From assembly GCF_011420305.2 (NCBI RefSeq), contig NZ_CP061769.1, positions 917,001-981,000 on the forward strand: a DNA stretch of 64,000 nucleotides, written 5' to 3'. Positions within the stretch are counted from its first letter, which is position 1; each line of letters starts with the position of its first letter. This DNA is from Nocardioides ochotonae. Its GTDB lineage: Bacteria; Actinomycetota; Actinomycetes; Propionibacteriales; Nocardioidaceae. This document shows, piece by piece, positions 16,198-57,252 of the stretch. Under the pieces are notes generated by a model that was not told the DNA's origin, ran no database searches, and saw only the letters and a program-made list of their open reading frames with translations. Both the position numbers and the translations under genes were made by a program.

Positions 16198-16199
16198 GC

Positions 16200-20721: not shown

Positions 20722-20734
20722 GGAATAGTGTTTC
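20722..20734. promoter_or_regulatory. IclR-type operator candidate 5
   Basis: GGAATAGTGTTTC, a variant of the 13-bp palindrome, 26 bp upstream of the IclR gene at 20760 and between it and the divergent FadR-type gene. This suggests autoregulation. Confidence 0.5.
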
Positions 20735-20759
20735 GGAGACCGGAACGAAAGGTGACGAC

Positions 20760-40822: not shown

Positions 40823-41766
40823 CCTCGCACCACCTCCTGCGGGCGGCACCGGCCGGTGCCGCCGACCGGCTGCGGGCCCTGCTCCAGGGCACCGAGCTGG
40901 TGCACCTGCCGGGGGTGCACGACGCGGTCAGCGCGCGGCTCGCGAGCCGTAGCGGCGCGCGCGCCCTGCACCTCTCGGGCGCCGCGGTCTCCGCGGTGGA
41001 GCTCGGCCTTCCCGACATGGGCTTCGTGCACGGCACCGACATCGCCCGCCGGGCCGCGGTCATCGCGGCCTCGGCGGGTGGCGTCCCGCTGCTGGCCGAC
41101 GCCGACACCGGCTACGGCAACGCCCTGCAGGCGCGGCACACCGCGCTGGCCTACGCCGCCGCGGGGGTGGCCGGTCTCCACCTGGAGGATCAGGTCTCGC
41201 CCAAGCGGTGCGGGCACATGGCCGGCAAGGCGGTGATCGGGTGCGCCGAGGCGGTGCAGAAGGTGCGCGCCACCATCGACGCCGCGACGTCGCTGGTCGT
41301 CGTGGCCCGCACCGACGCGCTGTCGGTGGAGGGGATCGACTCCGTGGTCGAGCGCTGCCTCGGGTTCGCCGACGCCGGCGCCGACGCTGTCTTCCCCGAG
41401 GGGGCGGGCCTCGCCGACCTCGAGCGGGTGCGCGACGCCCTGGACGCCGCCGGCCACCGGGTGCCGATGGTCTGGAACCGCTCCGAGGCCGCCGGTCCGG
41501 TCGAGGCCGGCCCGACGGCGGCCCAGCTCGCCGAGGTCGGCGTCCGCGCGGTGATCCACCCGGTCTCCGCGCTGCTGGCCGCCGCCCGCGCGATGGAGCA
41601 GGTCTACGCAGCAGTCGTCACGTCGGGCTCCGCAGCCGGCACCGAGCGCTGGGAGTGGTCCTCGCTCACCGGGCTCACGGGCCAGCCCGAGCTGCTCGAC
41701 GAAGAGAAGCAGTACGCCGTCGCCGAGGCCACCCCCTCGGCGCACCTTTCGAAAGGGAACCGATGA
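40819..41766 (+). CDS. isocitrate lyase / PEP mutase superfamily lyase
   Basis: 315 residues. The family signature appears as KRCGH at residues 129-133 (with HLEDQVSPK before it), and Asp residues for Mg binding appear in LLADADTGYGN (about 94-96). The cysteine of KRCGH is the general acid of true lyases, so C-C cleavage of a 2-hydroxy or 2-methyl dicarboxylate is likely. Relatives include 2-methylisocitrate lyase and 2,3-dimethylmalate lyase. The latter reaction would suit alkylated C4 acids derived from pyrrole rings, which is an inference. GTG start overlaps the aldehyde dehydrogenase stop. Confidence 0.88.
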   Translation: MTSHHLLRAAPAGAADRLRALLQGTELVHLPGVHDAVSARLASRSGARALHLSGAAVSAVELGLPDMGFVHGTDIARRAAVIAASAGGVPLLADADTGYGNALQARHTALAYAAAGVAGLHLEDQVSPKRCGHMAGKAVIGCAEAVQKVRATIDAATSLVVVARTDALSVEGIDSVVERCLGFADAGADAVFPEGAGLADLERVRDALDAAGHRVPMVWNRSEAAGPVEAGPTAAQLAEVGVRAVIHPVSALLAAARAMEQVYAAVVTSGSAAGTERWEWSSLTGLTGQPELLDEEKQYAVAEATPSAHLSKGNR

Positions 41767-42989
41767 CCACCACCCCCCACCACAGCACCGTTCTCGTGGC
41801 CGGCGCCGGCGCGGTCGGCCTGACCGCCGCCCTGGTCCTGGCGCGTGCGGGTGTGCAGGTGACCGTGCTCGAGGCCGGCGCGACGCTGTCCACGGAGTCG
41901 CGCGCCTCGACGTTCCACCCGCCGAGCCTGGAGATGCTCGACGACCTCGGCGTCCTGGAGCCGCTGATGGCCCGCGGCATCGTGTCCACCGGCTTCCAGT
42001 ACCGCGATCGCCGCTCCGGCCCGATCGCCGACCTCGACCTCGGCGTGCTCTCCGAGGACACCCGCTTCCCGTTCCGCGTGCAGTGCGAGCAGTCCAAGCT
42101 CACCCCGATCCTGCTGGAGGTCCTCGAGGGTCTCGAGCATGTCACCGTCCACTTCGACCAGCGTGTGGTCCAGGCCGAGACGACCGCCGAGCAGGCGACC
42201 CTGACCACCGAGCGCGGTGACGTGTTCACCGCGGACTGGGTGCTCGGCGCCGACGGCTCGAACTCCCAGGTGCGCCAGACGGCCGGCTTCACCTTCGAGG
42301 GCATGACCTACCCCGAGCGCTTCCTGGTCGCCTCGACCACCGAGGACCTCGACACGATCCTGCCGGGCATCTCGGCGGTCAACTACGTCTTCGACCCGAC
42401 CGAGTGGCTGGTGCTGCTGCGCACCCCCGAGCACTGGCGGATCCTGTTCCCGACCGACCCGAGCACCCCCGACGAGGTCGAGATCGACCCCGCCCGCGTG
42501 CAGGAGCGCCTGGCCGGCGTCGCCGACCTCGGCCGCGACTGGGACGTCCTGCACACCACCCTCTACCGGGTGCACCAGCGGGTGGCCGACACCTTCCGCA
42601 AGGACCGGCTGATCCTGATGGGCGACGCCGCCCACATCAACAACCCGCTCGGCGGCATGGGCATGAACAGCGGCGTCCACGACGCGATGCTCGAGGCGCT
42701 CGCGCTGATCGGCGTGCTCGACGGGTCGGCGTCCCTCGACGAGCTCGACGAGGTCTGCGAGGCGCGCCGCCAGGTGGCGCTGTCCTACGTCAAGACCATC
42801 ACCCACGACAACTGGGAGAAGCTGCGCCAGGACGACCCGGCGGCGCAGAAGGCCTACCACGACGAGCTGCGCACGCTGGCCTCCGACAAGGAGAAGATGC
42901 GCAAGCACCTGCTCAACACCTCGATGATCAACTCGCTGCGCAGCGGCCAGGTCGTCGACATGGTCGGCGTGGGCGGTACGCAGGCGTGA
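41763..42989 (+). CDS. class A FAD-dependent monooxygenase
   Basis: 408 residues. The FAD fingerprints are clear: GAGAVGLTAALVLARAG at residues about 14-30, the DG motif in WVLGADGSNSQVR, and the second fingerprint LMGDAAHINNPLGGMGMN. It belongs with hydroxylases of the PHBH/UbiH type that act on aromatic or pyrrolic rings. About 50 charged residues follow the second fingerprint in place of a thioredoxin-like tail. ATG overlaps the lyase stop. The substrate is unknown. Confidence 0.9.
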   Translation: MTTTPHHSTVLVAGAGAVGLTAALVLARAGVQVTVLEAGATLSTESRASTFHPPSLEMLDDLGVLEPLMARGIVSTGFQYRDRRSGPIADLDLGVLSEDTRFPFRVQCEQSKLTPILLEVLEGLEHVTVHFDQRVVQAETTAEQATLTTERGDVFTADWVLGADGSNSQVRQTAGFTFEGMTYPERFLVASTTEDLDTILPGISAVNYVFDPTEWLVLLRTPEHWRILFPTDPSTPDEVEIDPARVQERLAGVADLGRDWDVLHTTLYRVHQRVADTFRKDRLILMGDAAHINNPLGGMGMNSGVHDAMLEALALIGVLDGSASLDELDEVCEARRQVALSYVKTITHDNWEKLRQDDPAAQKAYHDELRTLASDKEKMRKHLLNTSMINSLRSGQVVDMVGVGGTQA

Positions 42990-44428
42990 GGATCGAACGC
43001 GAGAACCCGGCGCGCACCGACGAGCTCGTCGGTGCCGTCGAGTCCTCCGACGCGGTGGCGGTCGACGAGGTCGTCGCCCGCGCCCGCGCCGCCCAGGCGC
43101 AGTGGGTGGCGGTGCCGGTGGACAAGCGCGCGGCCCTGCTGCGCGAGGCGTCGGCCCGGGTGCGCGAGCACCTCGAGGAGATCGCGACCCTGACCGCGCG
43201 CGAGACCGGCAAGGTGCTCGCCGACTCGCGCGGTGAGGCCGGGTTCGCCGCGACCGTGCTCGGCTTCTACGCCGACCGCGGCGAGGCGCTGCTGACGCCC
43301 GGCGGGTACGACGACGTGCGCGGCCGGATGAGCGTGCGGCACCGCCCGTACGGCGTCGTCGCCGCGATCACGCCGTGGAACGCGCCGCTGATCCTCACCA
43401 CGCTCAAGCTCGCCCCGGCCCTGGTCAGCGGCAACGCGGTGGTCGTGAAGCCGTCGCCGTTCGCGCCGTTCGGCATCGGCCGCCTGCTCGAGCTGGTCGG
43501 CCGCGACCTGCCCGCCGGCCTGGTCCAGGTCGTGCACGGGGGAGCGGAGACGGCGACCGCGCTGGTCTCGCACCCGGGCGTCGACCGGGTGGCGTTCACC
43601 GGCGGCGAGTCGGCCGGGCGGGCGATCGCCTCGCTGGCCGGTCGGGCGCTCACCCCGAGCGTGCTCGAGCTCGGCGGCAACGACGCCGCGCTGCTGCTCG
43701 ACGACGCCGCCCTCGACGACGCCGCGCTGGAGCGCCTGGTGATGGCCGCCTTCGCGACCAGCGGCCAGGTCTGCATGGCGATCAAGCGCCTATACGTCCA
43801 CCGCAGCCGGCTCGACGAGGTCGTCGCCGGGCTGGAGTCCGCGGCCGCGCGGGTGCTGCGTACCGGCGACCCGCTGCACGACGGCGTCAGCATGGGCCCG
43901 GTCGTCAGCGGCGACTCGGCCGCGCGCGTGACCGGGCTGGTCGAGGAGGCCCGGGCCGCCGGCGCCGAGGTCCGCGAGCTCGGCACCGTCGACCCCGCGA
44001 CCGACCTCTCCCGTGGCTACTTCGTGCGACCCACCCTGGTGCTCGGGGCCGGGGACGCCTCGCGGATCGTGGCCGAGGAGCAGTTCGGCCCGACCCTGCC
44101 GGTGCTCGCCTTCGACGAGGTCGACGAGGCGGTCGCCCGCGCCAACGCCGGCGACCTGGGCCTCGGCGGCTCCGTCTGGTCGGCCGATGAGGACCGCGCG
44201 TTCGCGGTCGCGGCGCGCCTGGACGCCGGCTTCGCCTTCGTCAACACCCACAACCGCACCGGCATGGCGCTGCACGCGCCGTTCGGCGGCGTGAAGCGCT
44301 CCGGCTGGGGCCGGGAGTACGGCGACGACGGGCTGTGGGAGTACGTCCAGCCCTGCGTCGTGCACGCCCCCGCGGCCTTCCGCGCCGGGGGCGCCGGCCT
44401 CGCGGCCAACGCCTATCCCGGGTCGTGA
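42986..44428 (+). CDS. aldehyde dehydrogenase 2
   Basis: 480 residues. Landmarks: AAITPWNAPLILTTLKLAPALVSGN, VVKPSPFAPF, AFTGGESAGRAI, catalytic base in LELGGND and catalytic Cys in SGQVCMAIKR. Distinct from the enzyme at 39320 and closer to benzaldehyde/lactaldehyde dehydrogenase types. GTG start overlaps the monooxygenase stop. It ends the oxidation operon; the perfect hairpin TCGGGACC-AA-GGTCCCGA at 44433-44450 follows. Confidence 0.92.
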   Translation: MRIERENPARTDELVGAVESSDAVAVDEVVARARAAQAQWVAVPVDKRAALLREASARVREHLEEIATLTARETGKVLADSRGEAGFAATVLGFYADRGEALLTPGGYDDVRGRMSVRHRPYGVVAAITPWNAPLILTTLKLAPALVSGNAVVVKPSPFAPFGIGRLLELVGRDLPAGLVQVVHGGAETATALVSHPGVDRVAFTGGESAGRAIASLAGRALTPSVLELGGNDAALLLDDAALDDAALERLVMAAFATSGQVCMAIKRLYVHRSRLDEVVAGLESAAARVLRTGDPLHDGVSMGPVVSGDSAARVTGLVEEARAAGAEVRELGTVDPATDLSRGYFVRPTLVLGAGDASRIVAEEQFGPTLPVLAFDEVDEAVARANAGDLGLGGSVWSADEDRAFAVAARLDAGFAFVNTHNRTGMALHAPFGGVKRSGWGREYGDDGLWEYVQPCVVHAPAAFRAGGAGLAANAYPGS

Positions 44429-44432
44429 GAGA

Positions 44433-44449
44433 TCGGGACCAAGGTCCCG
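44433..44449. promoter_or_regulatory. shared upstream box 2
   Basis: TCGGGACCAAGGTCCCG, almost identical to the box at 36503-36519 and at a similar distance from an AT-rich palindrome. It is also a short perfect hairpin behind the aldehyde dehydrogenase gene, so it could have a terminator role. Confidence 0.4.
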
Positions 44450-44462
44450 AGCCGGGCCGCTC

Positions 44463-44475
44463 GATATAATATATA
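44463..44475. promoter_or_regulatory. GntR-type operator candidate E with -10 element
   Basis: GATATAATATATA contains a consensus TATAAT -10 (44465-44470). It lies 38 bp upstream of the first gene of the chlorophyll-type operon, so a bound regulator would cover the promoter. Confidence 0.65.
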
Positions 44476-44512
44476 GTTCAGGCATCACCGCCCGAGATCC
44501 CGAAGGACACCC

Positions 44513-45328
44513 ATGAGCCAGAACCTCAAGTACGTCCAGGACTTCCTGGACGACGCCCCGGTCACGGACGTCTCCGCCGTCTTCGCGGAGTGGACCGACA
44601 TCATCGAGGGACTCAAGACCAAGGCGATGGCGCACTTCGACCTGTTGCGCGACCCCTCCACGGAGGAGCTCGAGGCGTTCTCCTCCGACGTCGAGGGCGG
44701 CCCCTCGGGCAGCGTCCGCGGCTACACCGGCCCCGACGTGGACTGGATGATCCACTCCCACATGCAGAACAAGGGCCTGGGCTTCGTCAACGTCCACCTG
44801 ACCATCTGGCTCGGTCCGCACATCGACGTGCCGCACTTCGGCATGGCCCTCGGCGCGTTCCCGCAGGCCTGGATGTTCCTGGACTCGGTGCCGCGCAAGG
44901 TCGTCTCGACCGACGTCGACTACTTCCGCAAGTACTACGAGCCGTTCAACCAGGAGTGGCTGACGCTGCACAAGGAGACCCCGGGCATCGAGGAGTTCGT
45001 CTCGCGCGACGCCTTCGTCCGGGCCACCTACTCCCCGACGGCGTGGTCGTTCATGGCGCCGGGCTCGCAGGAGATCTTCGACCTGGCCCGCAAGACCGCC
45101 AACGCCCACATGGACCGCTGGCTGCAGTGGGTCGACGAGGCCACCGCGGTGCCGGTCGAGAAGCGCGCCGAGCTGGCTGCCAACGACCTCGCGACCCGCC
45201 GGAACATCGCCGAGCTGGACCCGGCCAACGTGGTCGCGGTCCGCTACTTCGGCGAGGAGCGCACCGCTCAGCTGGTCCGCGCCCTGTGGGGCGGCGACCG
45301 GGCCCTGCCCCGCCCGCTCGAGGCCTGA
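44513..45328 (+). CDS. red chlorophyll catabolite reductase (RCCR)-like protein 1
   Basis: 271 residues, no signal peptide. From about residue 78 the order of motifs matches plant RCCR: a VDWMIHSHM segment, DVPHFGMAL (PHF at 107-109), FLDSVPRK (122-129), DYFRKYYEPFN (136-146) and FVRATYSPTA (168-177). Plant RCCR, as I remember it, has the corresponding RKDLVLNPDYLKEYY and FVRSAFSPTA. RCCR shares its fold with ferredoxin-dependent bilin reductases and reduces the linear product of pheophorbide a oxygenase. That a bacterial copy heads an operon with a Rieske oxygenase makes a reductase role likely. A related gene lies at 63392 and a divergent one at 47604. A ferredoxin gene was not found nearby. 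Confidence 0.8.
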   Translation: MSQNLKYVQDFLDDAPVTDVSAVFAEWTDIIEGLKTKAMAHFDLLRDPSTEELEAFSSDVEGGPSGSVRGYTGPDVDWMIHSHMQNKGLGFVNVHLTIWLGPHIDVPHFGMALGAFPQAWMFLDSVPRKVVSTDVDYFRKYYEPFNQEWLTLHKETPGIEEFVSRDAFVRATYSPTAWSFMAPGSQEIFDLARKTANAHMDRWLQWVDEATAVPVEKRAELAANDLATRRNIAELDPANVVAVRYFGEERTAQLVRALWGGDRALPRPLEA

Positions 45329-45338
45329 CGACGACGCG

Positions 45339-46349
45339 ATGAGCTCTCCTGTCCTGGTCCGGGCGGTCCGCGAGGCGGTGCGCGTCCCCGGCGCGCCCGC
45401 CCCGTACGACACCGCCCACGTGACCATCCGGCACCCGGCCCGGCCGGCGTCGACGGAGGTCGAGCGGATGAGCGGCATGCTCCCCGCCGACGCCTCCGGC
45501 GCGCCGTACCCCGTGGTCGTCGTGGTGCCGGGCGTGAACGTCTCCTCCGAGGGCTACCGCTGGCTGGCGATCGCCCTGGTCGAGGCGGGCTACGTGTGCG
45601 TCACCTACGACTGGGTGGGGGAGCTCTTCGCGGGCCAGAACGGCCTGACTCCCGGGGTCGACCTGACCGCGGTCGGGCCCGAGACCTACGGCACCAAGCC
45701 GACCACGCCCGCGCTGGCCGCGGTGCTGGACCGGCTCGCCGAGCTGAGCTGTGCCGACGGCGGCGACGGCGGCCCGCTGCGCGGGCTGCTCGACCTGGGC
45801 CGCGTCGCCCTGGTCGGCCACTCCGCCGGCGGCACCGTCGCGCTGCAGTCGGCGAGCCCGGAGTGGTTCCCCGGCGTCCGCGCGGTGGTCACCTACGCCT
45901 CGCACACGATGGCCTCCCAGCAGCTCGGCCACCCGGCCGGCACGCTGCTGACCGCGCCGGTCGCCGTACCCGTCCTGCTGGTCGGCGGCAGCGCCGACGG
46001 CGTGGTCGCGGCGAGCGCGGTGCGCTACGGGGAGGAGGCCGGCGCTCCCGGCCACGACCCGCTCGAGCGCACCTGGCGCGAGGCGCTGCCGTCCGCGGCC
46101 GAGGCCTGGCTCGCGGTGCTCTCCGGCGCCGGGCACATGCTGCCCGCCACCCCCGACGACCCGTCGTCGGCACGAGGGTTCCTCGAGGAGCCGCTCGACG
46201 CCGACCAGGACGAGTTGCGCGAGGCCTTCGTGCGACTCGTCACCGACTTTCTTGCCGCGAAGCTCCGCGACGACCCGGCCGCCACGGCCACACTGCAGCA
46301 CCACCTGGACCAGCCCAACCCCGCCTTCGCCGATATCCGGCGACGCTAG
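45339..46349 (+). CDS. chlorophyllase-like alpha/beta hydrolase
   Basis: 336 residues, no clear signal peptide. It shows YPVVVVVPGVNVSSEGYRWL (57-76), the nucleophile elbow GHSAGG with S162, and a C-terminal His in SGAGHMLP. The arrangement of a Y-P-V-V-x-x-PG strand, a whole-chain 'VEAGYVCVTYD' strand and the GHSxGG elbow resembles plant chlorophyllase and dienelactone-hydrolase-like enzymes. Chlorophyllase cleaves the phytyl ester of chlorophylls; a methyl-ester or other ester cleavage is equally possible. It is 10 bp downstream of the RCCR-like gene and 10 bp before the Rieske gene. Confidence 0.72.
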   Translation: MSSPVLVRAVREAVRVPGAPAPYDTAHVTIRHPARPASTEVERMSGMLPADASGAPYPVVVVVPGVNVSSEGYRWLAIALVEAGYVCVTYDWVGELFAGQNGLTPGVDLTAVGPETYGTKPTTPALAAVLDRLAELSCADGGDGGPLRGLLDLGRVALVGHSAGGTVALQSASPEWFPGVRAVVTYASHTMASQQLGHPAGTLLTAPVAVPVLLVGGSADGVVAASAVRYGEEAGAPGHDPLERTWREALPSAAEAWLAVLSGAGHMLPATPDDPSSARGFLEEPLDADQDELREAFVRLVTDFLAAKLRDDPAATATLQHHLDQPNPAFADIRRR

Positions 46350-46359
46350 GAGGATCACG

Positions 46360-47607
46360 ATGTTCAAGAACTTCTGGTACGCCGTCGAATTCGCCACCGA
46401 CGTTGTCCCCGGCAAGCCCAAGAGGGTCAAGGTGCTGGGTCAGCAGCTGGTCCTCTACCGCAAGAACAGCGACAACTCCGTCGTTGCGATGTCGGACCTG
46501 TGCGTGCACCGCGGTGCCGCGCTCTCCGACGGTGAGGTCAAGGGCGACTGCATCATGTGCCCCTACCACGGCTGGGAGTACAACCCCGCCGGTGAGGTCA
46601 CCAAGATCCCCGCGCACCCCGACAAGGGCATCCCGCGCAAGGCCCGCATCGACTCCTACCCCGTGCAGGAGAAGTACATGATGGTGTGGGTCTACATGGG
46701 CGACCTGCCCGAGGAGGAGCGCCCGCCGATCCCGGACTGGTCCGCGGTCGACGACACCGACACCTACGCCGCCGTCACCGGCAGCTTCCTGTGGAAGTCC
46801 AACTACGAGCGCATCCTCGAGAACGGCGTCGACGTCGCGCACACGCCGTTCGTGCACGGTGGCGTCTTCGGCAACCCCGAGAAGCCCGAGGTCCCCGAGT
46901 TCGAGATCGAGGAGAGCCCCTGGCACTGCAAGGTGTCGGTCAAGCTCAACCCGCCGAAGTCGAAGGGCCTGTGGGGCCTCATCAACCCCAACAAGCAGGA
47001 CCTGGCGAACCGCCCGCAGGTCCCGGTCTCCACCACGTGGTGGCTGCCGAACATGATCCTGCTCGAGGTCGACACCCCGATGGGTGCGATGAAGATCTTC
47101 GACGTCAACATCCCGATCGACGAAGAGACCACGCTGGTCAAGTTCATCGCTCTGCGCACCTTCTTCAAGGGCAAGTGGGCCGACCGCGACGCCAAGCGCC
47201 GCGTCTTCAAGGTGCTCTACGAGGACCAGGCCATCGTCGACGCAGTCCGTCCCGAGCTGCTCCCGTTCGACCTCTCCGACGAGCTGCACGTCAAGAGCGA
47301 CTACAACGCGGTGCTCTACCGCCGCCGTCGTCAGCAGCTCATCGACATGGGCTGGTCGGTCGAGGGCAACACGATCGTCGGCGAGGGCCCGGCCCGCGTC
47401 GAGGCCCGGGTGATCCCCTCCCCGATCCGCAAGGAGGTGCCGGAGCTCGCCAGCGCGTGGAACTTCAAGGAGGTCCGCAGCCGCGAGATCAAGGCCGGCA
47501 TCCAGGAGAAGGAGGCAGCCGCGAAGGACGTCGCCGCTGCCCGCAAGCCCAAGGGCGCCGTCAACGGGGCGGCCGCCACGACCAAGAACGAGGACGTCAA
47601 GGCATGA
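46360..47607 (+). CDS. Rieske non-heme iron oxygenase, PAO/VanA type
   Basis: 415 residues. The Rieske cluster ligands are C48-x-H50 (LCVHRGAAL) and C67-x-x-H70 (CPYHGWEYN). The mononuclear iron motif is D158-x-x-H161-x4-H166 in ENGVDVAHTPFVH. This single-component layout is shared by pheophorbide a oxygenase, Tic55, chlorophyllide a oxygenase and vanillate demethylase. The terminal CxxC and membrane helix of plant PAO are absent, and a 45-residue charged, Ala-rich tail is present instead. Between the RCCR-like genes the expected role is oxygenolytic opening of a tetrapyrrole, by inference. AGGAGG precedes the ATG. No ferredoxin or reductase is encoded next to it. Confidence 0.85.
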   Translation: MFKNFWYAVEFATDVVPGKPKRVKVLGQQLVLYRKNSDNSVVAMSDLCVHRGAALSDGEVKGDCIMCPYHGWEYNPAGEVTKIPAHPDKGIPRKARIDSYPVQEKYMMVWVYMGDLPEEERPPIPDWSAVDDTDTYAAVTGSFLWKSNYERILENGVDVAHTPFVHGGVFGNPEKPEVPEFEIEESPWHCKVSVKLNPPKSKGLWGLINPNKQDLANRPQVPVSTTWWLPNMILLEVDTPMGAMKIFDVNIPIDEETTLVKFIALRTFFKGKWADRDAKRRVFKVLYEDQAIVDAVRPELLPFDLSDELHVKSDYNAVLYRRRRQQLIDMGWSVEGNTIVGEGPARVEARVIPSPIRKEVPELASAWNFKEVRSREIKAGIQEKEAAAKDVAAARKPKGAVNGAAATTKNEDVKA

Positions 47608-48344
47608 GCCTGCCCGAGGAACTCTGCATCGGCACGCTGAACGAGATCGTCAAGCGTGGCAACCTGACCGAGATCACCGGGGCCGACGGCGGCCCCTTCC
47701 AGGTGCTCGGCTCCGTGATGGGCCCCGACCCGGTCGGCTCGGTCCGGATCTTCTCCGGCGACACGATCGCCAAGGTCGTCTACGTCGGCATCGTGGTCCC
47801 GCAGATCCAGATGGACAGCCACATGGTGTTCGCGTTCATGCCCGACGACTCGCCGGTGCCGCACTACACCCTGGACTCGGTCCACGCCGGTGGGCACTAC
47901 GCCTTCCACATCGACCTGATCCAGCGCGCCGACGCCGGCACCCACATGGTCTACAACGACTGGGCGCACACCCCGCTCACCGAGGCCTACGAGCAGGTCA
48001 ACGCGATGGAGGGGCTGTCCAAGGCCGCTCTCGAGCCGCGCCAGCTCACCGTGATGTCGTCGTGGATGCTGGCCAGCCGTGCCAGCGAGGAGGCCTTCGG
48101 CAACCTCAACGCGCCGGTCAACGCCTACCTCGACCACTGGTTCTCCCTCGTCGAGGGTGAGGTGCCGGCCGAGGTCACCGCCGACCTGGCCGACACCGAC
48201 CTGGCGGCTCGCGACGCGAAGAACCGGGCGCTGCTCTTCAGCCCCGAGGTCGACAAGGTGTGGGCGCAGATCTCGCGCCTGCTCACCGAGCCGGTCGCGG
48301 AGAGCATCCGCCTGCAGCTGGTCGACAACGAGCTCCCTGCATGA
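47604..48344 (+). CDS. divergent RCCR / bilin-reductase-like protein
   Basis: 246 residues. It is a weak but ordered match to the RCCR-like protein at 44513: VPHYTLDS (86-88 for PHY), FHIDLIQRAD (101-110), then VNAYLDHWFSLVE (172-184), which lines up with ANAHMDRWLQWVDE there, and a similar charged C-terminus. The N-terminal 70 residues differ. The likely fold is that of ferredoxin-dependent bilin reductases, function unknown; it might form a heteromer or act on a later intermediate. ATG overlaps the Rieske gene, showing tight coupling. Confidence 0.6.
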   Translation: MSLPEELCIGTLNEIVKRGNLTEITGADGGPFQVLGSVMGPDPVGSVRIFSGDTIAKVVYVGIVVPQIQMDSHMVFAFMPDDSPVPHYTLDSVHAGGHYAFHIDLIQRADAGTHMVYNDWAHTPLTEAYEQVNAMEGLSKAALEPRQLTVMSSWMLASRASEEAFGNLNAPVNAYLDHWFSLVEGEVPAEVTADLADTDLAARDAKNRALLFSPEVDKVWAQISRLLTEPVAESIRLQLVDNELPA

Positions 48345-49294
48345 GCGAGGCCCAGGCCAGCGAGTGGCAGAAGCGCATCGCGGGGGAGTGGCACGGTCGT
48401 CCGTCGCTGTTCGACGCCGAGGGCAACCACGTCGGCTTCGAGCGGATCGCTCGGGCCAGCGTGGTCGAGAACGGTGAGACCAGCTACTGGATGAAGAGCC
48501 AGCTCGAGGGCAGCGGACCGCTGCGCAACCGCCTCGAGGTCGGCGCGACGTTCAACTTCGGGATCGTCGACTCCGACGAGAACCGGGTGTACGTCGGGCC
48601 GGACTTCTTCGGCACCGGTCAGCCCTACGGCACCCTCGTCGACGCGAACTACTACTCGCCGGCCTGGCAGGCCGACATGCACACCTGGAACCAGGTGCTG
48701 CCTGACGGTGACACGCAGGTCTACTCCTCGATCCTCTACGACGGCTGGTCCGTGGTGGCGCTGTTCAACGGCGTCTACACGCGCACCTTCGACCACGAGA
48801 CGAACCCCGAGACGCAGGCCTACGTCGAGGACTGGATCGCCGCCGAGACCCGGCGCGGTCCGGTCCCGCAGGTGCTGCCGACCAAGGAGGCCGGGACCTA
48901 CTCCGGCGTCCTCGCGGTGGTCGGTGAGGACCAGAAGCCGGTGGGCGAGGTCGCGGTGCGCATCGAGCACGAGCCCGTCGGGCTCCGCACGGTCCGGCAC
49001 CGGGTGACCTGGACCGGGGCGCTGGAGCGCTCCTACACCTACGAGCGTCAGCGTGACGGCGCCCGGGTCCTCTACGAGGGCCCGGAGGTCTACGGCAACG
49101 CCATGACCTTCGGTCGCGCGCTCTTCACCAACCAGCACCTCGTGGGGCCGGACCTCAAGGGCGTGGAGAAGATCCGCGGCCGCGAGTACGTCCTGGACCC
49201 CGAGACCCGTGACCTCGCGGTCGTGTGGCGCCTGTTCCACGGCGACCGCACCACGCACTTCATCCACGGACTACTGACCTGGGAGCCCCGATGA
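48341..49294 (+). CDS. two-barrel lipocalin-like protein
   Basis: 317 residues, cytoplasmic. Two beta-rich halves: the first opens EWQKRIAGEWHGRPSLFDAEGN, like the protein at 18238; the second runs from about residue 185 (AGTYSGVLAVVGED) to the end. The texture suits DUF3598-type calycins. Calycins such as CpcS/CpcT and lipocalins bind bilins or other hydrophobic ligands, so a chaperone for a ring-opened tetrapyrrole is conceivable; that is an inference. Coupled by ATGA overlaps with both neighbours. Confidence 0.6.
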   Translation: MSEAQASEWQKRIAGEWHGRPSLFDAEGNHVGFERIARASVVENGETSYWMKSQLEGSGPLRNRLEVGATFNFGIVDSDENRVYVGPDFFGTGQPYGTLVDANYYSPAWQADMHTWNQVLPDGDTQVYSSILYDGWSVVALFNGVYTRTFDHETNPETQAYVEDWIAAETRRGPVPQVLPTKEAGTYSGVLAVVGEDQKPVGEVAVRIEHEPVGLRTVRHRVTWTGALERSYTYERQRDGARVLYEGPEVYGNAMTFGRALFTNQHLVGPDLKGVEKIRGREYVLDPETRDLAVVWRLFHGDRTTHFIHGLLTWEPR

Positions 49295-50097
49295 GCAGCA
49301 CCGACGGTCGCGTCGTCGTCGTCACCGGTGGCACCCGCGGCATCGGCCTGGGCCTGGCGCGCGAGTTCCTCGCGCGCGACGCCCGAGTCGTCATCTGCGG
49401 GCGCAGCACGGAGGCGGTCGACAAGGCGCTCGCCGAGCTCGGCAGCGACCGGGCGAGCGGGCTGGCCACCGACGTGACCGACCGGGCCGCCGTACAGGCG
49501 CTGTGGGACCACGCGGTCGCGACCTTCGGGCGCGTCGACGTGTGGGTCAACAACGCCGGCCTCTCCGCTCCCCGCGGCCCCCTGCACACCGTGCCGGTCG
49601 ACGACGTCCACAGCGTCGTCGAGGTCAACGTGATCGGCGCCCTCAACGGCAGTGCGGTGGCCTCGCACGGCATGGCCGCGCAGGCCGGCGGCGGCTGGAT
49701 CTGGAACATGGAGGGCTTCGGCTCCCGTGGCGAGCACCAGCCGGGCATGGCCGTCTACGGCGCCTCCAAGCGCGCGGTGCAGTACCTCACCGAGGCCCTG
49801 GTCAAGCAGACCAAGGACACCGACGTGCGGGTCGGCTTCCTCTCGCCGGGGATCGTGGCCACCGACCTGCTGGTCGGCGACTACACCGACGACCCGGACG
49901 GGTTCGAGAAGGTCAAGAAGGTCTTCAACATCCTGGGCGACCGGGTCGAGACGGTCACCCCGTGGCTGGCCGAGCAGGTGCTGGGTGCCCACAAGCACGG
50001 CACCCGGGTTGCCTGGCTGACCAAGGGCAAGGCCATGCGCCGGTTCATGACGGCTGGGTTCAACAAGCGCGACATCTTCGCGAGCGAGGACGCCTGA
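49291..50097 (+). CDS. SDR, chlorophyll b reductase (NYC1/NOL)-like
   Basis: 268 residues. NAD(P) motif TGGTRGIG at 12-19, NNAG at 87-90, N113, and the YxxxK pair Y156/K160. The segment before the Tyr reads NMEGFGSRG (139-147) where most SDRs have a plain ISS; plant NYC1/NOL have the same N-I-D-G-x-GS-x-G type wording in the places I remember, and a similar LSPGxVxTDLL later. NYC1/NOL reduce the formyl group of chlorophyll b. An unrelated carbonyl substrate remains possible. It sits in the same operon as the RCCR-like, chlorophyllase-like and Rieske genes. Confidence 0.78.
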   Translation: MSSTDGRVVVVTGGTRGIGLGLAREFLARDARVVICGRSTEAVDKALAELGSDRASGLATDVTDRAAVQALWDHAVATFGRVDVWVNNAGLSAPRGPLHTVPVDDVHSVVEVNVIGALNGSAVASHGMAAQAGGGWIWNMEGFGSRGEHQPGMAVYGASKRAVQYLTEALVKQTKDTDVRVGFLSPGIVATDLLVGDYTDDPDGFEKVKKVFNILGDRVETVTPWLAEQVLGAHKHGTRVAWLTKGKAMRRFMTAGFNKRDIFASEDA

Positions 50098-50098
50098 C

Positions 50099-50815
50099 GT
50101 GCTGGCCATGAGCTCCACGATCGACGTGTGCGAGGAGTACGGCGTCGCGCTGGCCATGGAGGACTTCGTCCCCTGCGTGCTGGCGCTCGCTGCGCTGGTC
50201 ATCCTCGCCCTGGGCGTCCGTCGCCGGGTTCCGGCCGCCTTCCCGGTCGCCCTGCTCGGCGGGCTGCTGATCTCGGCCGGCGGGTTCGGCAAGGCCACGT
50301 GGAAGCTCCTGGTCGCCACCGGCTGCTGGGAGTACCCGTGGCTGGAGGCACTGCTCTTCCCCTGCCTGGCCTTCGGCTTCTCGGCCGTCGCCTGGGCCGT
50401 GCTCAGCGCGGTCAAGGGACGTGAGGTCGCGCCGCTGTGGTTCGTGCTCTTCCCGCTGGCCGCCGGCGTCGGCGCCGCCTGGATGAGCATCTCGGCCGGG
50501 GAGTACACGAACTGGCCGCTGCTGATCGCCGCCGCCGTGGGCGCGACGTTCCTGGGGGTCACGCTCGCCGCCACGGCGTTCCGGGCGGGGAAGCCCTCGG
50601 TCGGTGTCCTCTTCGTCCTCTACACCCTGGGCACCAACATCCTGCCCCCGCTCGCGGCCCAGCCGAACCAGTCGGCCGAGCTGCAGTGGGCCGAGCAGCT
50701 CACCAACTCCGCGGTCCAGCTCTGCTTCCTCCTGGGAGCGCTGTGGCTGCGCGAGCACCTGACCAAGCTGGCGGTCGACACGACCGCCGATGACAAGACG
50801 GGAGTGCCCGCGTGA
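50099..50815 (+). CDS. membrane protein, unknown function
   Basis: 238 residues with about seven hydrophobic helices and a short polar N-terminus carrying CEEYGVALAMEDF. No family recognised. The start could be GTG at 50099 or ATG at 50108; both fit the GAGGA upstream. It lies 1 bp after the SDR stop and overlaps the next gene, so it belongs to the operon. It may be a membrane anchor or carrier for a pathway intermediate. Confidence 0.6.
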   Translation: MLAMSSTIDVCEEYGVALAMEDFVPCVLALAALVILALGVRRRVPAAFPVALLGGLLISAGGFGKATWKLLVATGCWEYPWLEALLFPCLAFGFSAVAWAVLSAVKGREVAPLWFVLFPLAAGVGAAWMSISAGEYTNWPLLIAAAVGATFLGVTLAATAFRAGKPSVGVLFVLYTLGTNILPPLAAQPNQSAELQWAEQLTNSAVQLCFLLGALWLREHLTKLAVDTTADDKTGVPA

Positions 50816-51561
50816 GCGTGGACCGCCTGGGGTGGCGCCGCAAGTTCGGCGTCATCGCGCCCAGCACCAACACCATCGTCCAGCCCGAGTTCGACATGAT
50901 GCGCGTCCCGGGCGTCACGTCGCACTACGGGCGGATCTTCATCCCCGACGGCCGGATCGCCACCGACGAGGGCATGGAGAACCTCCTCCTGCAGATCCGC
51001 GCCAACATGGACGCCTGCGTCGAGAGCCTGATGACGATGCAGCCCGACTACATGGTCATGGGCATGAGCGCCGAGACGTTCTGGGACGGCGTCGAGGGCA
51101 ACCGCGCCTTCGTCAAGCAGATCCAGGCCCTCACCGGCGGGCTCGGCGTGGCGACCGGTGCCGAGGGCTGCGAGCGTGCGCTGCACCTCTTCGGTGCCAA
51201 GAAGATCGCCGTGATCACGCCGTACACGCCGATCGGCGACGCCAACGTGCGCAAGTTCTTCACCGAGCTCGGGTTCGAGGTCGGCCAGATCAAGGGTCTG
51301 TGCGTCAACAGTGCCGTCGAGATCGCCCAGGTCACCGAGAAGACGCTGCGCGAGTCGCTGATCGAGATCAACGACTCCGACGTCGACGCCATCGTGCAGT
51401 GCGGCACCAACCTGTGCATGACCGAGCTCGCCGACGAGGCGGAGCGCTGGCTGGACAAGCCGGTGATCGCGATCAACGCCGCCACCTGGTGGATGGCGCT
51501 GCGCGACAACGGCATCGAGGACCAGCTGCACGGCTACGGCACGCTGCTGCGCGAGCACTGA
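50812..51561 (+). CDS. Asp/Glu racemase superfamily enzyme (maleate isomerase / AMDase-like)
   Basis: 249 residues. The N-terminal GVIAPSTNTIVQPEF and the C-terminal cysteine segment VQCGTNL (C197) are typical of maleate cis-trans isomerase and arylmalonate decarboxylase. The first catalytic cysteine of maleate isomerase seems absent; the place reads VMGMSAETF. A single Cys is the arrangement of arylmalonate decarboxylase. Isomerisation of an alkyl maleate or decarboxylation of a malonate-like acid are both plausible. GTG overlaps the previous stop; it is the last operon gene before a strong terminator. Confidence 0.8.
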   Translation: MSVDRLGWRRKFGVIAPSTNTIVQPEFDMMRVPGVTSHYGRIFIPDGRIATDEGMENLLLQIRANMDACVESLMTMQPDYMVMGMSAETFWDGVEGNRAFVKQIQALTGGLGVATGAEGCERALHLFGAKKIAVITPYTPIGDANVRKFFTELGFEVGQIKGLCVNSAVEIAQVTEKTLRESLIEINDSDVDAIVQCGTNLCMTELADEAERWLDKPVIAINAATWWMALRDNGIEDQLHGYGTLLREH

Positions 51562-51983: not shown

Positions 51984-52658
51984 TCAGGCGAGGTCCGGCG
52001 GCGGGCCGGCCTCGGCGGCGTACCGCTCGACGAGCTCGGCGCCGAGGACCAGCCGCTCGCTGGAGCCCCAGCGCGGGTGGCAGGTCACCAGGGTCATGGT
52101 GCGCGCCGTCGGCTTCGCGCCCGGGAAGCCGGCGACCGGCTCCACGACCTCGACGGCGCTGGGGCTGACGATCCGGCTCCAGGTGACCTCGTAGACCAGC
52201 CACTTGCCGACGGTCTCGACGATGATCCGGTCGCCCTCCCCGACCTGGTCGAGGTTGGCGAACGGCTCGCCGTGGGTGGCGCGGTGGCCGGCGATCGCGA
52301 AGTTGCCGACCTGACCGGGCAGCGCGGTGCCGGGGAAGTGGCCCGGGCCTCGGGTGAGGTCGGAGTCGCTGACGCCCTCGACGACCACCCACTCCCAGTC
52401 CTTGCCAAGAGCAGGGATGTGCAGGACGCCGAAGCCCTCCCCGGCGCGCGGGGTGCTCTCCTTGGACGCCTTCTGGGCGCCGCCCTCGGCGCGCTCGCGG
52501 AAGTCGTCCATGAGGTCGCGCTGGGCGGCCTGGGTCTGCTGGTTGGTCCAGACCAGGAGGTAGAAGGCGAAGGCCAGCAGCACCAGTCCGGCGGTGATCG
52601 CAAGCTCTGCGACCGCACGGATTCCGGTGGCAAAGGCAGTTCGTAACAACGCGGACAC
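51984..52658 (-). CDS. class E sortase
   Basis: 224 residues. An N-terminal membrane helix (about 17-38) is followed by the sortase barrel with H125 (AIAGHRATHG), C193 (LVTCHPRW) and R202 (SERLVLG). Sortases cut an LPXTG-type signal and attach the protein to the cell wall; class E enzymes prefer LAXTG, yet the two candidate substrates in the window end in LPKTG and LPQTG. GTG start at 52658 with a -10-like AT-rich element directly upstream, so translation may be leaderless. It is divergent from the Pro-rich surface protein gene. Confidence 0.88.
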   Translation of the reverse strand: MSALLRTAFATGIRAVAELAITAGLVLLAFAFYLLVWTNQQTQAAQRDLMDDFRERAEGGAQKASKESTPRAGEGFGVLHIPALGKDWEWVVVEGVSDSDLTRGPGHFPGTALPGQVGNFAIAGHRATHGEPFANLDQVGEGDRIIVETVGKWLVYEVTWSRIVSPSAVEVVEPVAGFPGAKPTARTMTLVTCHPRWGSSERLVLGAELVERYAAEAGPPPDLA

Positions 52659-52728: not shown

Positions 52729-55101
52729 ATGAGGACGAGCGCACGAGCACTTGGGGCCGCCTTGGCCTCCGGCCTGGTCGCATCGATGGCACTCGTCGGT
52801 GCGGGTGCCCCGGGCGCTGCGGGCCTCGGCGCCGCCGCGGCGGACGAGCCTGCAGCGGTCGTCCTCGCCGGCGGGTGCTGGACCTACACGCCCGACCTGT
52901 CGAGCGACCCGGCGGAGCCGTCCGGGCCTGCCGTCGAGGTCGGACCCCTCGACCTGACCGACGTGCCTATGCTCGACATCTCCACCTCGTTGGAACCGTG
53001 GTCACTCCCGCCTTCGGACCCGGCTGTGCCCCCGGTCGCCCCGGTGCTCACGACCGCCGGCGACACCGCGGTCGGCGGCACCCGCACCTTCACCCTCGAC
53101 CTGGCCGGCGGTCCTGACCTCGGCGACGTTCCGACGCCCGTCACGGGGGTCTTCCACTTCTCCGTCAACGGGGAGGATATCGATCCGATCAAGGTCCCCT
53201 TCGGGCTCGGCCACGAGGACGAGGAGCTCCCCCTGGTCGAGGGCAGCTTCCCGATCGAGAAGACCGGCCCCCACTCGGTCGTGCTGCGCGGCGTCTTCTT
53301 CGACATGCCGCTCCTGCCTCGCCGGGTGGCCTGCAACGGCCAGACCGACGGCGTCCCCGGCGGCGTCAACCCCGCGACCACCCCGCTCGACACCAACCTC
53401 GCCTCCGGGTTCGACGCCGTCGCCGCGCCCAAGGCGTACGTCGCGGGCATCGAGGGCCAGTCCGGCCTTGCGGCGGCCCGCTCCGGCGACACTGTCCGGG
53501 TCTACGTCACCGGCCTGGCCTCCGGTGCCGAGGCGAGCCTCGCGCTCTGCGACGCCGCCGCGCTGTGCCTGCCGAAGGCCACGTTCCTCACGGAGCCGGA
53601 CGGCTCCGGACTCGGCGAGGTCCGGGTGCCGCGCGACGTGGCGACCGGGCCGGGGACGCTGCGGGTGACTCAGGGCCTCCACTCGCTGGACCTCCCACTC
53701 ACCCTGCTCGGCGCCCCGGCGCTCACCCTCACCGAGGAGACCGCGGACGACGAGGTCGAGGTCACCGTCGACGGCACCGGGTGGAACCCGGGCGCGCCCG
53801 TCGAGGTGCGCGGCTACCGCGGCCCTCGGCTCCTCGCCGGCAACGCCACCTCCGACCGCAGCGCACGGGTGCGGGCGGATGCGACCGGCTCGTTCCGTGC
53901 GACGTTCACCGTCACCGAGCGCGACACGAAGCGGATCGGTGCGGTGCAGGCGCGGCCCGGCCGCGCGCCGCTGCGTGCCGGTGCGGTCTTCGGCGGCGTG
54001 CCGCCCATCCCGCCGCCGACCGAGCCGCCGCCGGCCCCGCCGACCCCGCCGGTCCCGCCGCCGGCCGTCGTGACGCCGGCGCCGCCGGCCTCCATCGCGG
54101 CCCCGCCGGTCACCGAGCCGCCGCTCAGCATCCCGCCGCCCAGCGGCAAGGGCGTCAAGAAGTTCGATCCGCCGGCGGAGCCGGACCCGGCGCCCGCCGC
54201 GACGACCCTGGCCATCGGCCAGGTCTCGCTGGAGGGCAGCGTCTCCTTCGGCGAGCTCTTCGGCGCCGCGCCCGAGCGCACCCTCACCTTCACCGTGCAG
54301 AACCTCGGTGAGGTGGAGATCGTGGACCCCGAGGTGCGGCTCGTGGTCAGCAAGACCGACGACGTCGAGCCCGCGCCGGTCCAGGCCGGCATCGGCACGC
54401 TCGGGCCCGGTGAGCAGGCACAGGTCGAGATCCCGATCGCGCTGCCGACCGCCGCGTTCGGCACCTACCACGTGCGCGGCGGCGTCGGCGACGCCGAGCT
54501 GACCTCGTTCGACCTCGAGTGGAGCAGCTACCCCTGGGGGCTGTTCGTCCTCAACGCCCTCGGCCTGCTGCTGCTCGGGTGGGGCGTGCGCCGCCGCCTC
54601 GCCGCGCGGGGCGTCGAGCTCTCCGCGCTGCTTCCGGCCGCGATGCTGTCGCTGCCGGTCGGCGCGCGCCGTACGCCGGCCGCCGACGGGCCCCTCGGGG
54701 ACGCGGTCGTCGACCTGGTCGCCCTGGAGAAGTGGTGGGACCTGCGTGACGGCGGTCAGCGGCCGCCGGCTCCACGGCCCCGCATCCTCGGCGGCACGCC
54801 CACCCCGCTGATGGCCGCCGTCCCGGCAGCGGCGCTGCCCGACGACGCTGCGGAGCTGAACGACTCCGTGGTCGACCTGGCCGCGGCCGCCGCGTGGTGG
54901 GAGCACCGCAGCAACGGTGAGCCGCAGCCGCGCCGGCGCCTGCTCACGGTGGGCGGCGAGCCCGTCTCCCGCGCGGTCGGGCCGGTCGCGGTCCTCGATC
55001 CCGAGGCCGAGGCGGCGGACGCCGCCATCGTCGATCTCGCGGCCGCCGACGCCTGGTGGTCCAGGCAGGAACAGCGTCGGAAGGGTTACGGTCGTCGTTA
55101 A
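52729..55101 (+). CDS. large Pro-rich surface protein with cytoplasmic repeats
   Basis: 790 residues. A signal peptide (about 1-38) leads to an extracellular region of beta-rich, Ig-like modules (about 40-460, with paired Cys), a Pro-rich spacer (about 440-505, PPPTEPPPAPPTPP-type), a further beta module (about 520-595), one membrane helix near 600-620 and a 170-residue cytoplasmic tail. The tail has three copies of a VVDLxAAxAWW motif (near 659, 714 and 768). No LPXTG. Its function is unknown; a surface sensor, scaffold or transport partner is possible. Operator candidates lie on both sides. Confidence 0.75.
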   Translation: MRTSARALGAALASGLVASMALVGAGAPGAAGLGAAAADEPAAVVLAGGCWTYTPDLSSDPAEPSGPAVEVGPLDLTDVPMLDISTSLEPWSLPPSDPAVPPVAPVLTTAGDTAVGGTRTFTLDLAGGPDLGDVPTPVTGVFHFSVNGEDIDPIKVPFGLGHEDEELPLVEGSFPIEKTGPHSVVLRGVFFDMPLLPRRVACNGQTDGVPGGVNPATTPLDTNLASGFDAVAAPKAYVAGIEGQSGLAAARSGDTVRVYVTGLASGAEASLALCDAAALCLPKATFLTEPDGSGLGEVRVPRDVATGPGTLRVTQGLHSLDLPLTLLGAPALTLTEETADDEVEVTVDGTGWNPGAPVEVRGYRGPRLLAGNATSDRSARVRADATGSFRATFTVTERDTKRIGAVQARPGRAPLRAGAVFGGVPPIPPPTEPPPAPPTPPVPPPAVVTPAPPASIAAPPVTEPPLSIPPPSGKGVKKFDPPAEPDPAPAATTLAIGQVSLEGSVSFGELFGAAPERTLTFTVQNLGEVEIVDPEVRLVVSKTDDVEPAPVQAGIGTLGPGEQAQVEIPIALPTAAFGTYHVRGGVGDAELTSFDLEWSSYPWGLFVLNALGLLLLGWGVRRRLAARGVELSALLPAAMLSLPVGARRTPAADGPLGDAVVDLVALEKWWDLRDGGQRPPAPRPRILGGTPTPLMAAVPAAALPDDAAELNDSVVDLAAAAAWWEHRSNGEPQPRRRLLTVGGEPVSRAVGPVAVLDPEAEAADAAIVDLAAADAWWSRQEQRRKGYGRR

Positions 55102-56518: not shown

Positions 56519-57252
56519 CCGACGCCCCCGCGCTCTCCTGTGCCGGCATCCGCGCCTCCTATGGCCAGATGCAGGTGCTCTTCGACGCCGGGCTGGTCGT
56601 CGAGCAGGGCGAGATGGTCGCCCTGATGGGGCCCAACGGCGTCGGCAAGAGCACCTTGTTGAAGGTGATCGGCGGGCTGCTCAAGCCCGACGCCGGCACC
56701 GTGACGGTGGGCGGGGTGGACGTCACCCACGCCTCCACCCGCAAGCGGATCGACCTGGGGCTGTCCCAGGTGGTCGGCCAGTCGGCGTTCGGGTCGCTGA
56801 CGGTCGTCGAGAACCTGACCATGCACGGCTTCGCCGCGACCGACCGGCGCTGGAACCTGGAGGCCGTCGAGGCGGCGCTGGCCGTGTTCCCCCGGCTCAA
56901 CGCCCGCCGCAACCAGACGGCCTCGACGCTCTCCGGGGGCGAGCGCCAGATGCTCGCGCTCGCCAAGGCGATCGTCGTCGAGCCCAAGGTCCTCGTGATC
57001 GACGAGTTCTCCCTCGGCCTGGCCCCCGTCGTCGTGGGCGGACTGATGGACCTGCTGCGCCGGCTCAACGAGCGGGGCTCCGCCGTGCTGCTCGTGGAGC
57101 AGTCGGTCAACGTCGCCCTCTCGCTGGTCGACCGTGCCTACATGATGGAGAAGGGTGAGATCATCGCTGAGGAGCGTGCCGCCGACCTGGCGGCCAACCC
57201 CGACCGGATCCGCGAGCTGATGCTCGGTGGCCACGCGGCGGGTGCCCGATGA
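56515..57252 (+). CDS. Liv-type ABC ATPase (LivF-like)
   Basis: 245 residues. Walker A GPNGVGKS, signature LSGGERQML, Walker B VLVIDEFSLGLAP (Phe in place of Pro after the Glu-containing DE), and H loop region LLVEQSVNVAL. The length suits LivF. It overlaps the binding-protein stop and the next gene. Confidence 0.92.
   Translation: MTDAPALSCAGIRASYGQMQVLFDAGLVVEQGEMVALMGPNGVGKSTLLKVIGGLLKPDAGTVTVGGVDVTHASTRKRIDLGLSQVVGQSAFGSLTVVENLTMHGFAATDRRWNLEAVEAALAVFPRLNARRNQTASTLSGGERQMLALAKAIVVEPKVLVIDEFSLGLAPVVVGGLMDLLRRLNERGSAVLLVEQSVNVALSLVDRAYMMEKGEIIAEERAADLAANPDRIRELMLGGHAAGAR

Follow-up and report, generated by a model that had tools for sequence, protein, structure and literature searches.

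What does an actinobacterium do with an operon in which relatives of the red chlorophyll catabolite reductase (RCCR) of plants lie beside a Rieske oxygenase and a lipocalin-type protein, and on which molecule would these proteins act? The question is raised by positions 44513-51561 of a 64,000-nucleotide stretch of Nocardioides ochotonae DNA (positions 917001-981000 of the single 4.26-Mb contig), which is called the window below and to which coordinates refer unless a locus or genome is named. The original prediction had read these genes as a bacterial operon resembling the plant pheophorbide a oxygenase (PAO) pathway. We lean, by a modest amount, to a different answer, that the operon is part of a conserved actinobacterial cluster which most likely captures linear tetrapyrroles (bilins of chlorophyll or haem) and would break them down to central metabolites.

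Structure and conservation of the operon

Eight open frames, all on the + strand and with zero internal stops, make up 44513-51561. Four of the seven junctions are overlaps of 4 bp and the remaining three are gaps of 10, 10 and 1 bp, as expected of the tight operon that had been predicted. The first gene encodes RCCR A (44513-45328, 271 residues), a member by profile of the RCCR family PF06405, and is followed by a generic alpha/beta hydrolase with a GHSAG motif (45339-46349), a Rieske non-haem iron oxygenase of the vanillate-demethylase type (46360-47607), a divergent RCCR paralog with a modelled bilin reductase fold, RCCR B (47604-48344), a protein modelled as a double lipocalin-type barrel (48341-49294), a generic short-chain dehydrogenase/reductase (SDR; 49291-50097), a membrane-type protein with no Pfam match (50099-50815) and a protein of the maleate isomerase/arylmalonate decarboxylase (AMDase) family (50812-51561). 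These genes end a + strand run of fourteen (36577-51561) in which 9 of 13 junctions overlap by 4 bp and an 84-bp gap lies immediately upstream of RCCR A.

A scan of GTDB genomes gave 206 stretches, 180 of them with an RCCR A relative, and scanned loci were confirmed by tblastn using the window RCCR A protein. The best 80 of the 180 were analyzed with 10 kb stored per side, some ending at contig edges. Their record titles range from Nocardioides to metagenome-assembled genomes of Acidimicrobiia, and the closest named relative of RCCR A among them is from Nocardioides sp. zg-DK7169 (88% identity). The operon is not a chance arrangement, as the genes for RCCR A, the Rieske protein, RCCR B and the double lipocalin keep the same order on one strand in 76 of the 80 loci. 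In 70 loci this holds for a set of seven, with the hydrolase, SDR and AMDase-type genes added to those four. Median identities of the core homologs to the window proteins are about 49-67%. Homologs of the hydrolase were found in 77 loci and of the membrane-type protein in 51, and a nitrilase homolog lies at most 1.5 kb upstream of RCCR A in 66. Within 10 kb, the FAD monooxygenase described below has homologs in 62 of the 80 loci, the acyl-CoA-dehydrogenase-fold protein in 50 and the methylisocitrate-lyase-type protein in 26, while each aldehyde dehydrogenase has them in 69, counts that are possibly inflated since the two queries cross-match. The distribution is patchy, with RCCR B in 23 of 294 Nocardioidaceae genomes; across the phylum, 3 of 396 genomes, one of them the own genome, have PF06405.

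RCCR-type proteins

A third paralog, RCCR C (275 residues), to which the original prediction had pointed by its position 63392, is encoded on the - strand at 63392-64000 by a gene that continues to 64219, 219 bp beyond the window end (L005:2392-3219). RCCR A and RCCR C scored 43.5 and 47.4 bits against PF06405 (cut-off 24.9), in line with the RCCR-like reductases of the original prediction, and on these profiles both would belong to the RCCR/bilin reductase superfamily. RCCR A found Arabidopsis RCCR (3aga) with a phmmer E value of 2.9e-7, and a profile of its relatives (alignment A4, 58 rows) found RCCR at 3.4e-19 and GtPebB at 3.4e-9 in the PDB. Against PF05996, the family of ferredoxin-dependent bilin reductases (FDBRs), RCCR A reached 22.6 bits, under the cut-off of 31. 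Window RCCR B was unmatched by PF06405 and only 2 of the 44 rows in the alignment of its relatives gave a weak match (best E 0.0017); as judged by this profile it is filed outside the family. A PDB profile search with RCCR B returned nothing useful. Its predicted structure is a bilin reductase fold, which agrees with the second bilin-reductase-like protein that had been proposed and which RCCR B therefore probably has.

We picked 24 cluster-bearing genomes from the 80 loci, a set whose members are not mutually independent. All eight Nocardioides and Mumia genomes among them have a second RCCR copy, which we regard as RCCR C, at a distance of 17-24 kb from RCCR A and 34-38% identical to it. In the window an NAD-dependent epimerase/dehydratase gene (62523-63395) overlaps RCCR C by 4 bp.

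Functional roles are known for Glu154 and Asp291 of Arabidopsis RCCR, the former being, as we take it, the counterpart of Asp-99 of the bilin reductase GtPEBB. GtPEBB is reported to require Asp-99 and Asp-219 (PMC6755814). Asp-99, Arg-215 and Asp-219 match the letters of the GtPebB chain after 2 is subtracted from the chain numbering. The Asp-219 position corresponds to Asp236 of RCCR A in 58 of 58 A4 rows, within an AExDPA-type motif common with GtPebB. The Asp-99 position is Asp91 in RCCR B, conserved in 44 of 44 rows, and RCCR B is the only paralog with an acid there; in RCCR A the equivalent site lies four residues past the invariant His108. We read this pattern of catalytic acids as chemistry that may be divided among the paralogs.

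Other proteins of the core

The Rieske protein has a VanA-type architecture (Rieske 86.6 bits and VanA_C 81.8 bits, both above cut-off) with CxH...CxxH and DxxHxxxxH motifs, and its nearest solved relatives are SxtDIOX (1.3e-43), SxtT and NdmA. The PaO domain PF08417 gave no match in this protein at E<=0.01 and none genome-wide at E<=1, a search that returned matches in 8 of 14 control genomes, above cut-off in one. The proposed identity as a pheophorbide a oxygenase could not be upheld on this evidence, and a strict mapping onto the plant PAO pathway was set aside on the missing PF08417 match and the nearest relatives. The hydrolase, which had been taken for a chlorophyllase, exceeded the cut-offs of the generic models Abhydrolase_6 (34.1 bits, cut-off 26.3), Hydrolase_4 and DLH only, and no chlorophyllase-named model was found for it in Pfam (E<=0.01) or NCBIfam (E<=0.001, 0 families); it may act as an esterase. 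Of the plant-like reading, then, the RCCR proteins, the bilin reductase fold, the lipocalin and the tight operon stand, and the pheophorbide a oxygenase and the chlorophyllase do not. The wider catabolic region and the linked neocarzinostatin-family protein described below are additions to that reading.

The 48341-49294 protein was modelled with a lipocalin-type barrel (calycin/lipocalin superfamily), in keeping with the predicted lipocalin-like protein, and is probably a double barrel. It has no Pfam family, and as a PDB profile search with it gave nothing useful the fold is taken from the model. The closest described proteins, the DUF3598 protein Npun_R4044 (2o62) and BFA1 (5yvf), differ from it, with identities of 12% and 9% and no Pfam family reached. 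The SDR (adh_short 146.9 bits; TGxxxGxG, NNAG and YxxxK motifs) matched general SDR models, none of the 25 of 218 NCBIfam models listed reached its cut-off, and we treat it as a generic dehydrogenase, setting aside on these general searches the NYC1/NOL (chlorophyll b reductase) label of the original prediction. The last protein of the operon (PF17645 62.3 bits, cut-off 25.9) matched maleate isomerase 2xed with an E value of 1.1e-9, and the EutA and AMDase equivalog models were both under cut-off.

Predicted surface capture and import

Downstream of the operon are a sortase gene (51984-52658, - strand; PF04203 113 bits) and, on the + strand at 60235-60879, a gene for a neocarzinostatin-family protein (PF00960 48.6 bits, cut-off 25), predicted to be secreted, with a C-terminal LPKTG and a hydrophobic tail. 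Of the 24 cluster-bearing genomes, 21 encode a family member above cut-off, and each of these 21 has a copy on the same contig as RCCR A, at a distance of 3.1-21.1 kb (median 14.6 kb). In a sample of 296 genomes of the phylum, 12 had a match, the own genome among these 12, and 10 were above cut-off. This linkage to RCCR A, which was unexpected from the initial finding, argues for a chromophore as the substrate. LPxTG was present in 4 of 10 neocarzinostatin copies read, near the C-terminus in three.

A Liv-type ATP-binding cassette (ABC) importer is encoded at 55199-60164 (+ strand) by genes for a substrate-binding protein and a LivF-like ATPase, both recognized by eye, and for a fused permease-permease-ATPase (57249-60164; BPD_transp_2 184.3 bits, ABC_tran 103.4 bits); a Pfam search with the substrate-binding protein gave no match at 1e-5. 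Directly after the neocarzinostatin-family gene follows a gene for a predicted secreted protein (60873-62183, + strand) with a proline-threonine linker and a C-terminal LPQTG, seen by eye and with no Pfam match, in which two repeat-like halves can be discerned by eye. Divergent from the sortase gene is a gene for a long predicted secreted protein (52729-55101) whose neocarzinostatin match, 17.2 bits, is below cut-off.

The wider catabolic region

Upstream of RCCR A, the + strand run starts with a flavin reductase domain fused to an HMGL-like domain in one frame (36577-37956; Flavin_Reduct 148.5 bits, HMGL-like 39.1 bits), followed by an acyl-CoA dehydrogenase-fold protein (37953-39323; Acyl-CoA_dh_M 47.3 bits, 16 listed NCBIfam models below cut-off) that may be its flavin monooxygenase partner, aldehyde dehydrogenase 1 (39320-40822; Aldedh 347.8 bits), an isocitrate lyase/phosphoenolpyruvate (PEP) mutase family protein (40819-41766), a flavin adenine dinucleotide (FAD) monooxygenase (41763-42989; FAD_binding_3 194.1 bits) and aldehyde dehydrogenase 2 (42986-44428; Aldedh 432.6 bits). 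The PEP mutase family protein, with a KRCGH motif (PEP_mutase 124 bits; prpB 217 bits, below cut-off), matched carboxyphosphonate phosphorylmutase 4iqd (9.3e-54), 2-methylisocitrate lyase 1mum (2.7e-42) and 2,3-dimethylmalate lyase 3fa3 (1.1e-39), and is likely a C-C lyase. A GntR/FCD regulator gene (35700-36398, - strand; GntR 60.5 bits, FCD 52.5 bits) is divergent from this run.

Before the regulator lies a nitrilase-superfamily protein (33926-35596, + strand; CN_hydrolase 142.8 bits over residues 5-260 of 556), preceded by a major facilitator superfamily (MFS) transporter (32391-33851, - strand; MFS_1 201.4 bits), an isochorismatase-fold hydrolase with a putative amidase role (30883-31551, + strand; 112.9 bits, best NCBIfam model RutB 51.3, below cut-off) and class III CoA transferase 2 (29664-30878, + strand; CoA_transf_3 433.1 bits), for which the glutarate and mesaconate CoA-transferase models gave 296 and 257 bits, both below cut-off. 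Further genes, all on the - strand, encode a hydroxymethylglutaryl-CoA (HMG-CoA) lyase family protein (28639-29598; NF004283 270.6 bits, cut-off 246), class III CoA transferase 1 (27277-28473; 377.7 bits), a cyclase-family hydrolase (26387-27217; PF04199 104.4 bits), an MmgE/PrpD family protein (24903-26390; 207.9 and 117.5 bits) and an allantoinase/hydantoinase-type cyclic amidohydrolase (23440-24906; allantoinase model 224.9 bits, below its cut-off of 357.85). An IclR-type regulator is at 20706-21557 (+ strand; IclR_C 125.6 bits). The family of the cyclic amidohydrolase includes imidases (PMC4437985), and this protein is a candidate imide hydrolase.

The linkage of this region to the core extends to other genomes. 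MmgE/PrpD homologs were found in 22 of the 24 cluster-bearing genomes (best E <=1e-115 in each), and cyclic amidohydrolase homologs (E<=1e-90) in 23. In 18 of the latter the homolog shares a contig with RCCR A and lies within 70 kb of it, in 4 it is on a different contig and in 1 it is about 415 kb away; none was found in the remaining genome. Four Acidimicrobiia loci (L072, L084, L085 and L087) carry homologs of both CoA transferases, the HMG-CoA lyase, the cyclase-family hydrolase, MmgE/PrpD and the amidohydrolase within 10 kb upstream of the core. Beyond the window end are genes for a mesaconyl-CoA-hydratase-type protein, a luciferase-type monooxygenase, a RidA-type protein, a thiolase and a CitE-type lyase, and counterparts of several of these occur in the extended regions of other genera, in a comparison of six genomes that rests on rough open-frame calls.

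Some observations were made at the margins. Peptide/nickel-type ABC transporter genes occupy 7224-18690 (solute-binding protein 14623-16197, SBP_bac_5 275 bits; the others recognized by eye), and related frames lie near the cluster in Yinghuangia. Two genes at 2549-4928 encode an AMP-dependent ligase (297 bits) and a membrane-type protein of no assigned family, and both have counterparts in part of the six extended regions. In a distant actinobacterial genome a hydantoinase A/B-like pair, read by eye from similarly rough frames (L006:4614-8347), lies slightly upstream of the core and is a further lactam-opening candidate.

A possible route of bilin degradation

From the families, order and linkage of these genes, we infer a bilin substrate and a route of five steps. 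At the cell surface, pigment would be bound by the LPxTG neocarzinostatin-family protein, which the sortase encoded nearby would anchor, and the pigment or its fragments would enter through the ABC importer or the MFS carrier. Inside the cell the double lipocalin would hold the bilin while the three RCCR proteins, supplied with electrons by a ferredoxin encoded elsewhere, would reduce selected double bonds. The Rieske oxygenase and two flavin monooxygenase systems could then cleave the methine bridges, whose carbons the two aldehyde dehydrogenases could oxidize. The lactam or maleimide rings would be opened, with release of ammonia, by the cyclic amidohydrolase, the cyclase-family and isochorismatase-fold hydrolases and the nitrilase. 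Lastly, the maleate-isomerase-type enzyme, the CoA transferases and the MmgE/PrpD or mesaconyl-CoA-hydratase-type enzyme would act on alkyl-maleates, from which the methylisocitrate-lyase, HMG-CoA-lyase and CitE-type lyases would yield pyruvate and acyl units.

Each pyrrole ring of haem and chlorophyll bears a methyl group, so that imides derived from these rings would give methyl-branched C4 dicarboxylates, the class of compounds on which the mesaconyl-CoA-hydratase, PrpD and methylisocitrate-lyase families act. Haematinic acid has been obtained from chlorophyll a both in vitro and in leaves, and maleimides and haematinic acid are cited from senescent leaves and lake sediments (PMC7318184). 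The fullest form of the proposal, a complete surface-to-central-metabolism system for eating bilins in Actinobacteria, with neocarzinostatin-fold traps, lipocalin carriers, an RCCR trio of divided regiochemistry, a tetrapyrrole-splitting oxygenase and a lower pathway from maleimide to pyruvate, we hold to be an even call.

Evidence against and alternative explanations

Several points weigh against bilin degradation. The main argument at the sequence level against ordinary RCCR activity in RCCR A and RCCR C is the missing acid, the GtPEBB Asp-99 position being Ala in RCCR A (57 of 58 A4 rows) and Val in RCCR C; in RCCR B the second Asp is ambiguous, as two profile alignments placed it differently. 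RCCRs and Rieske oxygenases require electron partners, and a scan that covered 80 kb of the own genome and 14 other loci, by cysteine and nucleotide-binding patterns, revealed no credible ferredoxin or ferredoxin reductase, which is weak evidence of absence from a method of patterns and a codon-composition filter. The one ferredoxin pattern match was a short frame at the window start, unlike a ferredoxin. Neocarzinostatin-family proteins are known for binding enediyne, not bilin, and the substrates of Liv-type importers are usually small molecules; no neocarzinostatin-family match was obtained in G413, G416 and G419, three of the 24 genomes, and 6 of the 10 copies read lack LPxTG and end in a hydrophobic tail. 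Two loci (L057, Nonomuraea corallina; L081, Actinoplanes couchii) carry RCCR A without the other core genes, the lone homologs lying around 10001-10804; in L023 the Rieske and lipocalin genes are apart, and in L083 no lipocalin was found. CoA transferases, MmgE/PrpD proteins, lyases and SDRs are common in actinobacterial catabolism. The functions of the cluster members, and the bilin itself, are deduced from gene families, and maleimides were undetected in the leaf samples of the haematinic-acid study (PMC7318184).

Some of these points would fit better if the molecule degraded were not a tetrapyrrole but some other extended N-heterocyclic pigment or antibiotic, with RCCR-fold proteins recruited to reduce it and the neocarzinostatin-family protein binding it. 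The family carries non-tetrapyrrole chromophores, the usual catalytic acid is absent from RCCR A, the nearest relatives of the Rieske protein are N-heterocycle enzymes such as SxtT and NdmA, and the importer is Liv-type. Nearly all solved relatives of the RCCR fold act on tetrapyrroles, however, and one region holds three RCCR paralogs together with a haem/bilin-type barrel; we take this alternative seriously but consider it unlikely. We find it distinctly improbable that the operon is a bacterial version of the plant PAO pathway, in which the Rieske protein would open the pheophorbide macrocycle, RCCR A and B would reduce the red product and the hydrolase would cleave the ester. PAO and RCCR act sequentially in plants, and the position of the Rieske gene between RCCR A and RCCR B in 76 loci, as well as the frequency of the hydrolase, would suit such a pathway, but the Rieske protein is of the VanA_C type with no PaO domain, the hydrolase and SDR are generic, and the families encoded nearby suggest that the rings themselves are degraded.

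That the cluster serves to dispose of or salvage biliverdin from the cell's own haem, in place of growth on an external pigment, seems to us very improbable. The genome does encode one haem oxygenase match (PF01126, 161.8 bits; G000:C1:3408417-3409013, L108), the only one, but at 3.41 Mb it is distant from the cluster, a distance that also counts against bilin degradation by the cluster. The anchored surface-type protein, the importers and the long carbon-recovery set fit an external substrate, and the patchy occurrence of RCCR B is unlike that of a housekeeping gene. Oxygenases, reductases and neocarzinostatin-family carriers do occur in biosynthetic clusters, and the genes might make or tailor a natural product, yet no polyketide or peptide synthase was among the Pfam matches of the genes scanned, which were part of the window genes, and the CoA transferases, lyases, cyclic amidohydrolase and importers are of kinds found in catabolism, so that we give this explanation the least credence of all.

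Comparison with known systems

The plant RCCR and the PAO/phyllobilin pathway are resembled in the profile membership of RCCR A and RCCR C and in the Rieske gene beside them, and differ in that here there are three paralogs, no PaO-type oxygenase and an Ala or Val in place of the central acid in A and C. We know of no use by plants of ring-degrading families like those linked in the cluster for RCCR/PAO breakdown. In Isd-type haem capture of Gram-positive bacteria, sortase-anchored surface proteins that bind the pigment, with NEAT domains for haem, feed an importer. An anchored surface protein and an importer are predicted here as well, with a neocarzinostatin-family fold in place of NEAT. The FDBRs PcyA, PebA, PebB and HY2 share the fold, and RCCR B keeps their central aspartate.

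Among heterotrophic bacteria, the pre-1 and pre-3 clusters of pre-PcyA genes typically contain haem oxygenase, V4R, iron-sulphur and globin genes (PMC10151467); these are not among the families found here, V4R and globin having not been searched for. RCCR-like sequences appear in that paper as an outgroup and in Ca. Schekmanbacteria, and its main text contains neither 'actinobacter' nor 'Rieske' (PMC10151467). Cyanobacteria (Nostoc, Anabaena) also have RCCR-family genes, two of them side by side in Nostoc punctiforme, but these are linked to plant symbiosis, and the available part of the source mentions no surrounding Rieske or catabolic cluster (PMC2716323). The gut bilirubin reductases BilV and BilR are a further case of bacterial bilin reduction, but BilV belongs to the Old Yellow Enzyme family and the described reaction is reduction to urobilinogen, not ring degradation (PMC13252198). 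The cluster thus appears to be unlike the described systems, with the PAO and FDBR labels having failed their defining test and the pre-PcyA, cyanobacterial, BilV and Isd systems set apart by their descriptions. The statement in the original prediction that no such bacterial operon was known agrees with our full-text searches of open-licence papers, which showed no bacterial RCCR operon or bilin-mineralising cluster.

Significance

Chlorophyll is made and degraded at 10^12 kg a year, and what becomes of its breakdown products later in decay is, by the account of PMC7318184, largely open. A conserved bacterial gene set makes this fate testable in culture and traceable in metagenomes. Should the substrate prove to differ, the locus would still be a catabolic system built around bilin-reductase-fold enzymes, for which the open-licence literature yielded no description. 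If the reading as a bilin-degrading cluster is true, it would provide the microbial end so far missing from the turnover of chlorophyll and haem, and would supply enzymes for handling bilins. It would also suggest a role for RCCR homologs outside photosynthetic organisms and would give neocarzinostatin-fold proteins a possible role beyond antibiotic carriage.

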